Source: Pseudomonadota bacterium
Lineage (GTDB): Bacteria; Desulfobacterota; Desulfobulbia; Desulfobulbales; Desulfurivibrionaceae
Assembly: GCA_018830485.1 (NCBI GenBank)
Contig: JAHJRQ010000006.1
Span: 1 to 64,000, forward strand
DNA: 64,000 nucleotides
Reading direction: 5' to 3'
The position numbers and the translations under genes were made by a program. How positions within the stretch are numbered: the first letter of the stretch is position 1; every line of letters begins with the position of its first letter. Under the pieces are notes generated by a model. The model saw only the letters and a list, made by a program, of their open reading frames with translations, had not been told where the DNA came from and made no database searches. Positions 1 to 10,624 of this stretch are shown here, in pieces.

Positions 1-2713
1 ATGTTCCCCACACCCGTGGGGATGAACCGTGTAAAAAGTGCGGGCAGAAACTAGGGGAAGTATGTTCCCCACACCCGTGGGGATGAACCGCTTGAATTTC
101 TGTCCACCGATCAATTACTTTTATGTTCCCCACACCCGTGGGGATGAACCGTCCCTCATATTTATTTTTGTGTCTGACATCTCATGTTCCCCACACCCGT
201 GGGGATGAACCGAAAGTAGCGGGTTGGAGAAGTAGTTAACTCGTATGTTCCCCACACCCGTGGGGATGAACCGTCATGAACTTGTTCGGCACCGGCCATG
301 CTCCTATGTTCCCCACACCCGTGGGGATGAACCGTAATTTATGGAAAATAAATACTTGACAGATGGATGTTCCCCACACCCGTGGGGATGAACCGCTTAA
401 ACGCAACGGCGTACACAGTTGGATCGAATGTTCCCCACACCCGTGGGGATGAACCGGCATTAGGATCATTAGGTTCCCCGACTACAATATGTTCCCCACA
501 CCCGTGGGGATGAACCGTTCCAATGGGTTTCATTATCCAATTCATTCATATGTTCCCCACACCCGTGGGGATGAACCGTATGTCGTTTAATACTTGTGGT
601 ATAGTACTTGATGTTCCCCACACCCGTGGGGATGAACCGTAAATCCAGGCTCCTCCCTTTTTCAATTAATGATGTTCCCCACACCCGTGGGGATGAACCG
701 TCACTATCTGGTTCAAAGAATTTTGCTTTCATATGTTCCCCACACCCGTGGGGATGAACCGCAATCATCCCGCCCAATGAATACGATATACTTATGTTCC
801 CCACACCCGTGGGGATGAACCGGCATAACAGAAAGGGTGTGACTCTGTTTGGATATGTTCCCCACACCCGTGGGGATGAACCGGCGAATGAGGGTAGTGA
901 ATGAGAGTTGACCCCATGTTCCCCACACCCGTGGGGATGAACCGGTTGTTTTGCCTGCAAACATTTTGCCCGCGATATGTTCCCCACACCCGTGGGGATG
1001 AACCGGAAAACCCGAGTTTCGCCACGGCGATGCTCGAATGTTCCCCACACCCGTGGGGATGAACCGTGGGGGCCTGTTGTGCCCCCTTACTTTAACAAAT
1101 GTTCCCCACACCCGTGGGGATGAACCGGGCCGATTGCGAATATAAATACACTCAAAATTATGTTCCCCACACCCGTGGGGATGAACCGTATGGCACGCCC
1201 AGGAAGGTCAGGGCCATGAGATGTTCCCCACACCCGTGGGGATGAACCGGCTCTCAGGCCGTCGGACCGGGAGCTGTACAAATGTTCCCCACACCCGTGG
1301 GGATGAACCGAAACGAGCCGTTCTGGTAACGCTGCCGCCCGAATGTTCCCCACACCCGTGGGGATGAACCGGAGAACGACCATGGCCTTCGGAAAATCGT
1401 TTAATGTTCCCCACACCCGTGGGGATGAACCGGCTCTGTTTGTCCCGCGCGAAGCGATCGATGAATGTTCCCCACACCCGTGGGGATGAACCGGATAGCA
1501 AAGAAGCTCGAACAGCCGTGGCCCAATGTTCCCCACACCCGTGGGGATGAACCGCAAAATGAAACGTGGATTGTTATCGGTTCAAAATGTTCCCCACACC
1601 CGTGGGGATGAACCGGCTAAAGCACCAACAGATAGCGATATACAGCAATGTTCCCCACACCCGTGGGGATGAACCGGAGACCACAACTTCCGCAAAATTG
1701 TGGTGGAAATGTTCCCCACACCCGTGGGGATGAACCGATGATACGGTAGAGGATGCAGAGATCGTGGGGATGTTCCCCACACCCGTGGGGATGAACCGGC
1801 TGTTCCATGCGCCTTCATAAATCACCCCGCATGTTCCCCACACCCGTGGGGATGAACCGGCAAAATCCCTTGTTATTCCAGAACAGAACCCATGTTCCCC
1901 ACACCCGTGGGGATGAACCGGTTTTCGGCGGCGTAAATACCTGGCTGGCTGGATGTTCCCCACACCCGTGGGGATGAACCGGTCATGGCAACCCCGGTAA
2001 CTGTTACCAGTAAATGTTCCCCACACCCGTGGGGATGAACCGCTGATGGCGTCAAACACGTTAATGCCACATGGATGTTCCCCACACCCGTGGGGATGAA
2101 CCGGGCCAGGCCTCCCCCCGCATAATCTTTGCCCAATGTTCCCCACACCCGTGGGGATGAACCGTGAGGCCCCGCCGTGGATGCCAGAACTGAAAAATGT
2201 TCCCCACACCCGTGGGGATGAACCGGATGAGTTTAGGGAATGGCTTACCGGAACCTGATGTTCCCCACACCCGTGGGGATGAACCGGCCGACCTTTGCCA
2301 CGATGCCGTGGAGCAGGTATGTTCCCCACACCCGTGGGGATGAACCGGCCTCATAATACGCATGTGGCATGGGTCAATGATGTTCCCCACACCCGTGGGG
2401 ATGAACCGGTCATGGCGACACCCGTAACCGTTACCAGCAAATGTTCCCCACACCCGTGGGGATGAACCGACTTTGATTCTGTAGAGGCGTTTAATGCGGT
2501 TATGTTCCCCACACCCGTGGGGATGAACCGGGTCATGGATGGTGGTACATCGATATCGGTCAATGTTCCCCACACCCGTGGGGATGAACCGCCGATTGTG
2601 GGAACATCGCCGGGGATGGGGATATGTTCCCCACACCCGTGGGGATGAACCGGCCCGAGAACTGTAATAGTTGGTGATTCATTTATGTTCCCCACACCCG
2701 TGGGGATGAACCG
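1..2713 (+). CRISPR. Type I-E CRISPR array, 45 repeats and 44 spacers, leader end outside the window
   Basis: Repeats of 29 bp start at position 1 and then every 61 bp exactly, the last at 2685-2713, so spacers are 32 bp throughout. The repeat begins ATGTTCCCCAC and ends GTGGGGATGAACCG. It holds a perfect stem (CCCCAC/GTGGGG) and ends in an ATGAACCG handle, closely matching the E. coli type I-E repeat whose handle is ATAAACCG. That similarity orients the array on the plus strand, so leader and cas genes should lie before position 1 and the oldest spacers near 2700. All repeats I checked, including the last one, look identical, with no degenerate terminal repeat. Spacers 33 (1982-2013) and 40 (2409-2440) are near-duplicates. 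No cas gene occurs anywhere in the window. Apparent open frames across the array are periodic translations of the repeat. Confidence 0.98.
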
Positions 2714-3047: not shown

Positions 3048-3356
3048 TCACTCCTTCCCGAGCAATCTCCGGGCCACCTCGGCATAGACCTCGAAATCCA
3101 CCCGTTTGCCGATCCCGACCACCTCGACGATCACTTTATCCTCCACGATCCGGTACACCACCCGGATCGATTTGCGGACCGCATACAACTTGTAATACCC
3201 GGTCAGGTCAAAACCGCGCATGTTGCCGAGCGGCTGGCCGAGATGGGGGGAGGCTTCCAGCTTTTTGAGCTGCGCGGCGACCGGTTTCTTGAGCGAACCG
3301 TCCAGGTCTCTAAAATCGGCGGCTGCGTCCTCGGTGAACACCACCTTATAAGGCAA
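3048..3356 (-). CDS. RelE/ParE-family toxin (type II toxin-antitoxin)
   Basis: The protein is 102 aa, typical for RelE-fold mRNA interferases. It shows the family pattern: an N-terminal strand (PYKVVFTEDA), a helix with LKKPVAAQLKKLEASP, then GYYKLYAVRKSIRVVYRI and a final VVGIGKR strand with a basic patch. I start it at a TTG codon (3354-3356) because a strong AGGAGG lies six bases upstream. This puts the start 11 bases inside the end of the antitoxin gene, so translation is probably coupled. The expected role is ribosome-dependent mRNA cleavage held in check by the upstream antitoxin. The family call rests on pattern; RelE versus ParE-like activity cannot be told apart by eye. Confidence 0.85.
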   Translation of the reverse strand: MPYKVVFTEDAAADFRDLDGSLKKPVAAQLKKLEASPHLGQPLGNMRGFDLTGYYKLYAVRKSIRVVYRIVEDKVIVEVVGIGKRVDFEVYAEVARRLLGKE

Positions 3357-3636
3357 TGTTTTCCTCCTGTAGGAGTGAGTCCAGGGGAATCCGTTTGCCG
3401 GTGTCTTTCTTTCTTTTGGTGACGAGGTCGTAAATCTCGAGGTGTTCGACGAATTCGACGATGTCCGCCATGTATTCATACTCCTCGACCGGCAGGATGA
3501 CGGCGGTGATTTCATTATTCCTGACCACGGCGGTCTTGTCTCTTTTGTGTTCGGCAAGGTCCGTGACCACCCTTCCGAAATTCTTTGCCGCGGCAGTGGC
3601 GCTGATCATCTCGTCCCGTGTAAAATTTGCCCGCAT
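3346..3636 (-). CDS. Phd/YefM-family antitoxin
   Basis: The 96-aa product has a Phd/YefM-type N-terminal DNA-binding part (residues ~8-60: ATAAAKNFGRVV, then VVRNNEITAVILPVEEYEYM), followed by an acidic/helical C-terminal tail that should wrap the toxin. The ATG at 3634-3636 is preceded by AGGAGGAG at ideal spacing; longer upstream frames lack this. It precedes and overlaps the toxin gene, the usual order for autoregulated pairs. A palindrome over a TATAAT-like box lies about 27-45 bases upstream and is the likely self-regulatory operator. Confidence 0.87.
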   Translation of the reverse strand: MRANFTRDEMISATAAAKNFGRVVTDLAEHKRDKTAVVRNNEITAVILPVEEYEYMADIVEFVEHLEIYDLVTKRKKDTGKRIPLDSLLQEENIAL

Positions 3637-3662
3637 GTCATTCTCCTCCTTATTTGTCGCAT

Positions 3663-3681
3663 TATTATACGGGATATAATA
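3663..3681 (-). promoter_or_regulatory. Palindromic operator overlapping a -10 box for the toxin-antitoxin pair
   Basis: TATTATA and TATAATA form perfect 7-bp arms around a 5-bp centre. Read on the minus strand the right arm supplies a TATAAT-like -10 element 27 bases or more before the antitoxin ATG. Autorepression at such sites is typical of YefM/Phd systems; the assignment here is inferred from position and symmetry. Confidence 0.5.
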
Positions 3682-3956
3682 CGCGCAATGTGCAGCTCTC
3701 GTCAATCCTGATTTGCGGAAAAATCCCTGGTTATCTCTTGTTGCCGGATGCAGGCATGGGGGTGGGACGGGTGTTGCAGAGGTGCAGTTGTCGATGCGTT
3801 GTCGGCAAATGGAAGGGTTCCTGGGTCAGTTCAGAGTTTCGGATATTCCTCCGCTAATCCGTAAAGCCGGGAAAAATGGATGCGGGGGCCGCAGGCAACT
3901 ATCCGAAATTCTGGCCTGCGCCTTTTTTGCAAAAAAAACAAGGCAACCTTCGAGGA

Positions 3957-8557: not shown

Positions 8558-9190
8558 TCAGCTCAGGGTCTGGAAGATGTTTTTCAGCCCGGTGGTGATG
8601 AATTCCACGGAGATGGCGGCCAGAATAAGCCCCATGATCCGGGTGATGATATTGATCCCGGTTTTGCCGAGTTTTTTGGCGATGTGGGGCGCGGCCAGCA
8701 GGGAAAGATAAATGGACAGGCCGATGAGGAGAATGCCCGCGCTGGTAATCAGATAGGCCAAAGGTCCTTTTGCCTTGTAGGCGTATACGATAACCGTGCT
8801 GATGGCGCCCGGGCCAGAGAGCAGGGGGATGGCCAGGGGTACGACGGCGATGGTCTCGCGGTCCGCGGTTTCTTCGGCCTCGTCGCTGGTATGGGCGGCG
8901 CGGCTGGTCCTGGCCTGGAGCATGGAGATGGCCATGAGCAGAAGAAGGATGCCGCCGCCCACCCGGAAGGAATCAACGGAGATTCCGAAGAAGCGGAGGA
9001 TGAATTCGCCGCTGATCAGGGTGGTCAGGAGAATGATGGACACGGCCACCGGGGTGATCCGGACGATTCTGGCCCGGTCTTCCGGGCGGTAGCCGTCGGT
9101 GAGGCTGATATAGATGGGAATGGCGCCGATGGGGTTGACGATGGCAAAGAGGGAGATGATGAACTTTATGTGATCCGAGAAATCGAACAT
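8558..9190 (-). CDS. MarC-family integral membrane protein
   Basis: The 210-aa product has six hydrophobic segments and the MarC family hallmark near the N-terminus (FAIVNPIGAIPIYISLT), plus IPLLSGPGAISTV in the middle, both highly characteristic. The transported substrate is not known; the old link to multiple antibiotic resistance has not held up for the family. It lies 40 bp before the stress-protein gene on the same strand, so it may head a three-gene unit with the universal stress protein and the cation ATPase. Confidence 0.92.
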   Translation of the reverse strand: MFDFSDHIKFIISLFAIVNPIGAIPIYISLTDGYRPEDRARIVRITPVAVSIILLTTLISGEFILRFFGISVDSFRVGGGILLLLMAISMLQARTSRAAHTSDEAEETADRETIAVVPLAIPLLSGPGAISTVIVYAYKAKGPLAYLITSAGILLIGLSIYLSLLAAPHIAKKLGKTGINIITRIMGLILAAISVEFITTGLKNIFQTLS

Positions 9191-9377
9191 GGCGCTGAAC
9201 CCTGTGTGGATCGAGTTTTTCAGTTTTCTCCTGCGATGGATGAAGCCGGGGCTTTTTGTATATTGTATAGGGGAAAGAGGTTCTATGCAAACAGGGAGAT
9301 GGTTTTAAGGGAAAAAGCGGAAAGCAGCGGGAGGCGTCATGTTCATTTCCTTGGCATGAAACCGTCGCTCTTTACCC

Positions 9378-9887
9378 TTACCGGGCGCCGTCATTTTTAT
9401 AGAGCCCCGCAAAGATTTCGCGCAACAATCGTTCGTCAATCCTTGCCATCAGACGTTCTTCATATTCATCTTTTTCCGGTTCCGCCTCGGCGGACGGTTC
9501 CGGCTGGAGATGATTTTCCGCTCCTGCCGGAGGCACGGGCACGGAGTCGATTTCGTCCTGATAGTCCCGATTGTTTTCTATCCAGCGCTGGCAGTCGTCG
9601 TGGCTGCCGATGTAGGCAAAGATCAGCCGTCTTTCCCTTTTCAGGGCGATGAGCCGGAATCCGCAGGAAAGATCGTACTTGCGGCAGTCATTGAGGCGCA
9701 ACTCGCCGTGGCGGGTGCGTTTGCATTCCGCCTCCTCGTGCAGGGGGTTGGTTTGCAGATCGGCGATAATCCTTTGTGCCCGTTCGGCCACGATGCGCTC
9801 ATTCTTGCCGGCCTTGGCCATGGCCACCAGCCGCTTGGCAAACCTCCGGGTTTGGTGAACCTCCAAGAGCATCTTTTCCATGCTCAT
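9378..9887 (-). CDS. RelE-fold-like protein coupled to the activase gene
   Basis: Residues 1-110 of this 169-aa protein read like a RelE/ParE-type fold: a helical N-terminus, a strand RHGELRLND, then CGFRLIALKRERRLIFAYIGSHDDCQRWI, as in toxin-superfamily proteins annotated near YafQ/RelE. The last 60 residues are an acidic, charged extension unusual for toxins. No antitoxin gene is beside it. Instead its ATG overlaps the stop of the dehydratase-type activase by four bases, so it is translated with the redox cluster. Either a stand-alone nuclease-like protein or a non-toxic derivative is possible. Confidence 0.6.
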   Translation of the reverse strand: MSMEKMLLEVHQTRRFAKRLVAMAKAGKNERIVAERAQRIIADLQTNPLHEEAECKRTRHGELRLNDCRKYDLSCGFRLIALKRERRLIFAYIGSHDDCQRWIENNRDYQDEIDSVPVPPAGAENHLQPEPSAEAEPEKDEYEERLMARIDERLLREIFAGLYKNDGAR

Positions 9888-10624
9888 ATCCCTGTCCCGT
9901 GCAGGGCCGCGCCCAGGGCGCCGGTGATGTCCGGCAGCTCCGGCACCAGCACCCTGGGCAATCTTTTTTCGAGCAGCTCCACCATGCAGGGGTTGCGCGC
10001 CACCCCGCCGGAAAAGGCGACCGGATCGCCATGCCCGAGCCGGGCCAGCATCCCGGCCAGGCGGTCGGCCACCGAGGAGTGCACCGCCCTGGCGATCCGG
10101 TCACGGGCAATACCCCGGTTCTTCATGGAGATCACCTCGGACTCGGCGAATACCGTGCACATGGAGTTGATCAGCACCTCTTGGTCGGCGGTAAGCGCGG
10201 CCCGGCCGAACTCCTCCAGGGTGTAGGCCAGGGAAGCGGCCATGATCTCCAGAAATCGCCCGGTGCCCGCGGCGCATTTGTCGTTCATCTGGAAATTGCT
10301 TACCCGGCCCGCCGCATCCAAACTGATCACCTTGGAGTCCTGGCCACCCACATCGACAATGGTGGCGCAACCGGGAAACTCATGGAAAATGCCGCGGGCG
10401 TGCGCCTTGATCTCGGTGATCACCGCATCGGCGAAATGCCCGGCAGCCAGATGCCTGCCGTAGCCGGTGGCCACCACGACCTTGGCGCGGTAATCGGCGA
10501 TCATCTTCTCCGCCTGGCGATGCGGCTCGAAACCCGACGGCTCGATCCGGTGCTCCACCAGCCGCTCTCCGTCCCAGACCGCCATTTTGACGGTCCGGGA
10601 GCCCAGATCAACTCCGATGTACAT
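9884..10624 (-). CDS. ATP-dependent activase of the HgdC/BadF family (DCCP reductase-like)
   Basis: The 246-aa ASKHA ATPase starts MYIGVDLGSRTVK (phosphate loop) and has VDVGGQDSKVI and SGGVARNPCMVELL for nucleotide binding. The two cysteines that hold the subunit-bridging [4Fe-4S] cluster are present in NDKCAAGTGRFLE and SMCTVFAESE. Such proteins are homodimers that use ATP hydrolysis to push a low-potential electron onto a partner Fe-S protein. The partner is almost certainly the HgdB-like protein encoded two bases upstream. The closest characterised pairs of this single-plus-single type are the double-cubane cluster protein and its reductase, and E. coli YjiM/YjiL. Confidence 0.92.
   Translation of the reverse strand: MYIGVDLGSRTVKMAVWDGERLVEHRIEPSGFEPHRQAEKMIADYRAKVVVATGYGRHLAAGHFADAVITEIKAHARGIFHEFPGCATIVDVGGQDSKVISLDAAGRVSNFQMNDKCAAGTGRFLEIMAASLAYTLEEFGRAALTADQEVLINSMCTVFAESEVISMKNRGIARDRIARAVHSSVADRLAGMLARLGHGDPVAFSGGVARNPCMVELLEKRLPRVLVPELPDITGALGAALHGTGI

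Follow-up and report, generated by a model that had tools for sequence, protein, structure and literature searches.

How did one CRISPR array come to hold two spacers that differ from each other only at synonymous codon positions? The question is raised by the window analysed here, a 64,000-nucleotide stretch of one contig from a bacterium of the Desulfurivibrionaceae, whose first base is also the start of the contig and already lies inside the array. The array and the two spacers concerned are as follows.

1-2713, plus strand: the part of a type I-E CRISPR array nearest the trailer, with 44 spacers of 32 bp set between 45 identical repeats of 29 bp.
1982-2013, plus strand: spacer 33, 32 bp, GTCATGGCAACCCCGGTAACTGTTACCAGTAA, the newer of the pair, read directly and compared with all other spacers.
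2409-2440, plus strand: spacer 40, 32 bp, GTCATGGCGACACCCGTAACCGTTACCAGCAA, the older of the pair, read directly and compared with all others.

The numbers 33 and 40 refer to the 44 complete spacers of the window alone; 18 more, on the leader side, lie on another contig of the same genome (C6), together with the leader and the cas genes. C6 and the contig of the window appear to join directly, judging by the partial repeat with which C6 ends and the repeat at window base 1. With the leader and cas genes on C6, the window represents the old (trailer) end of the array, and spacer 40, which sits seven units closer to that end than spacer 33, is therefore the older of the two. The repeat occurs 63 times in the genome, 45 times in the window and 18 times where C6 ends, always without a mismatch; the array period is 61 bp, and each of the 61 spacers lying between two full repeats is 32 bp long. 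The gene order on C6 is cas3, cse1, cse2, cas7, cas5, cas6e, a weakly Doc-like gene and cas1, followed by the leader, and the matches to the NCBIfam models casA_cse1, casB_cse2, casC_Cse4, casD_Cas5e, casE_Cse3, cas3_core and cas1_ECOLI all exceed the cut-offs. Cse1, Cse2, Cas7e, Cas5e, Cas6e, Cas3 and Cas1e are thus all present alongside a 29-bp repeat and 32-bp spacers, and the array is of type I-E. It resembles the E. coli-type I-E system in its cas3, cse1, cse2, cas7, cas5, cas6e and cas1 genes, in its repeat and spacer lengths and in the 5' AAG found at protospacer homologues, and differs from it in the weakly Doc-like gene between cas6e and cas1, with nothing else unusual seen. The match of this gene (9041-10066 of locus L033, on C6) to Doc-type toxins is weak and falls under the cut-off.

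Direct reading of spacers 33 and 40 bore out the preliminary description, which had them identical at 27 of 32 positions with differences at positions 9, 12, 15, 21 and 30; they also share the same strand and the same register. The description of the pair as synonymous in both frames was likewise correct, the translations being VMATPVTVTS and LLVTVTGVAM(T). Synonymy on both strands does not add independent evidence, since in spacer frame 0 the two strands have their wobble positions at the same bases. The chance of two unrelated spacers agreeing at 27 or more of 32 positions is 2.9e-12 per comparison, or about 1e-8 over all pairs in the 62-spacer array. Among these 62 spacers, 33 and 40 are the only similar pair, with a local score of 22 compared with 10 for the next best pair, and when 328 spacers from four genomes of the genus were shuffled seven times, the highest score reached was 16. 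That all five differences fall in one residue class modulo 3 has a probability of 0.0058 if the class may be any of the three, and in only 0.7% of trials did five random substitutions spare the translation in any of the six frames. Taken alone, this wobble-phase statistic (p about 0.006) is modest.

Where the two spacers would have been cut from their source depends on the PAM, which is very likely AAG for this array, as read from the sites of other spacers and not from those of 33 and 40. One of these other spacers also lies within the window.

2287-2318, plus strand: spacer 38, with protospacer homologues in a D5-type primase gene in two same-genus prophages and one viral contig.

Identity to spacer 38 is 30/32 in the viral contig (L056), 30/32 in the prophage of genome G006 (L045) and 27/32 in that of G014 (L046), and a 5' AAG adjoins the homologue in all three. 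Four spacers of the sister genome G007 match the G006 prophage at 32/32, 31/32, 30/32 and 30/32, with AAG adjoining three of the sites (those of spacers 37, 54 and 55). In sister genomes the final base of the repeat is G except in a few copies, where it is T, C or A, as would be expected if the last repeat base derives from the PAM, and this variability, taken together with the AAG at the sites of other spacers, points to AAG as the PAM here. Elsewhere in the array, spacer 5 (274-305) resembles a stretch of thyX at 27-28/32 in genomes of another family; going by this resemblance, its unseen target is probably a related thyX, which would be the thymidylate synthase gene of a mobile element.

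The same PAM bears on the reading frame of the pair, whose coding strand had been described as undecidable. This view can be softened, given that AAG sites in the larger ORFs of same-genus prophage loci, counted in the phase that fits the wobble positions of the spacers, number 518 in sense and 210 in antisense, which favours the sense frame over the reverse by about 2.5:1. With the PAM read as an in-frame Lys codon, the coding sense of the pair is most likely KVMATPVTVTS. The ATG at spacer position 4 may be an internal codon or a start codon. MATPVTVT is found at or near the N terminus of ORFs in four viral contigs (L050, L052, L053 and L054), three of them mutually homologous, and its place near ORF starts is a weak hint of a start codon. 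These ORFs were themselves rejected as the source of the spacers, as Ser never follows MATPVTVT in them and they have no demonstrable link to the host.

We consider it probable that the two spacers were acquired separately from diverged homologues of a phage gene, at the same AAG-flanked coding site in each, in which case the source of both spacers would be coding and phage-borne. The PAM would fix the spacer register at the shared site in each phage, and purifying selection would leave only wobble changes between the orthologous phage genes, so that two samples of the same site would come to resemble a synonymous spacer pair. Sites matched by other spacers display such a pattern in prophages of the genus: the three phages compared differ there mostly or only at third codon positions, and the AAG (Lys) is conserved. 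At the site of G007 spacer 54, VKSLTGADTINARA is encoded in all three phages, the differences are synonymous only and AAG is conserved as an in-frame Lys codon; one acquisition from each of two phages like these would produce just the pattern in the window, two spacers of the same register and strand with wobble-only differences. There is also a second near-duplicate pair, spacers 23 and 60 of the sister genome G009 (L074), which agree at 29/32 in the same register and differ at positions 12, 16 and 27, not in one codon phase. Between species, spacer 1 of G009 and spacer 36 of G013 (L075) overlap by 29 identical bases with a 3-base shift.

Two separate acquisitions from homologous genes had already been put forward in the preliminary description, and this remains the best explanation on evidence that is indirect (the repeats, the register, the wobble pattern in prophages and the G009 pair); the protospacers themselves were not found. 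Searches with exact degenerate patterns or BLAST covered 50,697 phage records, 72,556 plasmids, 2.9 million viral contigs and about 85,000 species genomes without yielding a protospacer for spacer 33 or 40, and there was none in 258 relatives at up to two mismatches or in 27 family members at up to three. Degenerate-codon patterns in both frames returned no credible protospacer from the viral contigs and genomes, and the concatenated spacers gave nothing usable against phages and plasmids. Several candidates were set aside: BLAST matches of 17-30 bases in phages and plasmids, which are at chance level; a match in a Yersinia phage that runs antisense in its gene; a 25/32 match in genome G120 (L043), which lies inside a chromosomal pyridoxamine-oxidase gene and is put down to chance; a Bacteroidales match (L068), antisense in a VTVTG-containing protein and again at chance level; and the Desulfofustis phages MD01 and MD02, which are without any match to the pair.

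Repeated sampling of one site had been thought to suggest a preferred acquisition spot or mismatch-primed adaptation, and both are compatible with the data. A hot spot is needless, in that AAG sites number about 1,140 per 40 kb in same-genus prophages and, at this density, a same-site pair would be expected at times if a good share of the array came from one phage family. Priming would refine the reading of two related phages rather than exclude it: spacer 40 would have recognised a diverged phage imperfectly, and the primed uptake that followed, at its own target or close by, would have supplied spacer 33. We regard this as possible but rather doubtful. Target recognition by Cascade involves a seed and an every-sixth rule (PMC5904413). 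The seed of spacer 40 (positions 1-8) perfectly matches the presumed target of spacer 33, two of the five mismatches (12 and 30) fall at flipped-out positions of Cascade, and the array order makes spacer 33 the younger, all of which would suit priming. Against this, priming usually draws new spacers from elsewhere on the same molecule, and spacers 34-39, which lie between the two, have no recognisable common source. A further reading, in which the host returns to an essential, protein-constrained site whenever wobble drift has altered it in the phage and the array thereby accumulates a series of synonymous forms of one target, strikes us as unlikely. Were it true, and were many such arrays to hand, spacer order would give the order in time of silent divergence in phages.

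A source in a single element with two copies of the site, for instance in tandem Ig-like domains of one tail protein or in a pair of paralogous genes, would make the second phage needless. VTVT-rich peptides are common in beta-sandwich repeat domains, which the peptide of the pair would fit, and the sole exact genome match to the relaxed pattern is antisense in a VTVTG-containing protein. Ten identical residues with five silent changes are, however, less usual for tandem domains than for orthologues in related phages, and the genus' own phages directly show the orthologue pattern. We therefore think this origin improbable. Alternatively, the target could be an operator palindrome (GTAAC-N-GTTAC) that is non-coding and conserved between phages, in which case the codon phase of the differences would be accidental. 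Inverted repeats are indeed present in both spacers.

1996-2008, no strand: inverted repeat GGTAACTGTTACC (6+1+6), within spacer 33.
2424-2434, no strand: matching inverted repeat GTAACCGTTAC (5+1+5), within spacer 40.

GTAACNGTTAC occurs in both, with one of the five changes at its centre and the other four outside it. An operator would nevertheless leave to chance the restriction of every difference to a single codon phase (p 0.006); no copy of the palindrome, even allowing one mismatch, occurs in the four loci comprising genus prophages and their closest viral contig, and arms of five or six bases are also found in several unrelated spacers of the array. This makes an operator very unlikely in our view, and both it and the two-copy element are less likely than two related phages as the source. 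Duplication of one spacer within the array followed by mutation is scarcely credible, for although the two spacers share array, register and strand, the neighbouring spacers are not duplicated, and the spacer would have gathered five changes over its 32 bp, every one of the same codon phase, while 63 repeat copies stayed free of mismatches, the identity of all the repeats rendering a mutated duplicate implausible.

Similar cases have been published, and spacers 33 and 40, taken as samples of two related phages, are a tidy but unremarkable example of a process already known. The Desulfofustis phages MD01 and MD02 have a common protospacer in a capsid gene, with sequence variants, that is matched by more than one spacer (PMC10370329), and the parallel lies in several host spacers matching the same conserved gene in related phages of variable nucleotide sequence. 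There the protospacers have been identified, and one spacer is the reverse complement of another, whereas here the spacers are on the same strand with wobble-only differences; the peptide of the pair is absent from both MD01 and MD02. Independent acquisition of the same protospacer during priming has been described for the type I-C system of Legionella (PMC5071653), which differs from the present case in subtype (I-C rather than I-E) and in the use of a laboratory plasmid with one identical target sequence. The single case presented here alters no current view of CRISPR adaptation. Synonymous spacer pairs can nonetheless indicate a protein-coding source without the phage in hand, as well as attack on the same lineage by related phages at different times, and they offer an inexpensive way of picking out conserved targets in unknown phages.

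Two further observations concern the surroundings and composition of the array. Just past its trailer end, on the minus strand at 3048-3705 of the window, lie two adjacent ORFs which, by eye only, we take to resemble a RelE/ParE-type toxin and a Phd/YefM-type antitoxin. Within the array, the GC content of spacers 1-13 (30-793) is 0.39 compared with 0.52 for spacers 14-44 (823-2684), and the first base is G in 1 of these 13 spacers but in 22 of the 31 older ones (Fisher p 0.0008 for the 31 older against all 31 newer spacers, with a boundary chosen after looking). The AT-rich spacers 1-13, which seldom start with G, perhaps reflect a change in the phages encountered.
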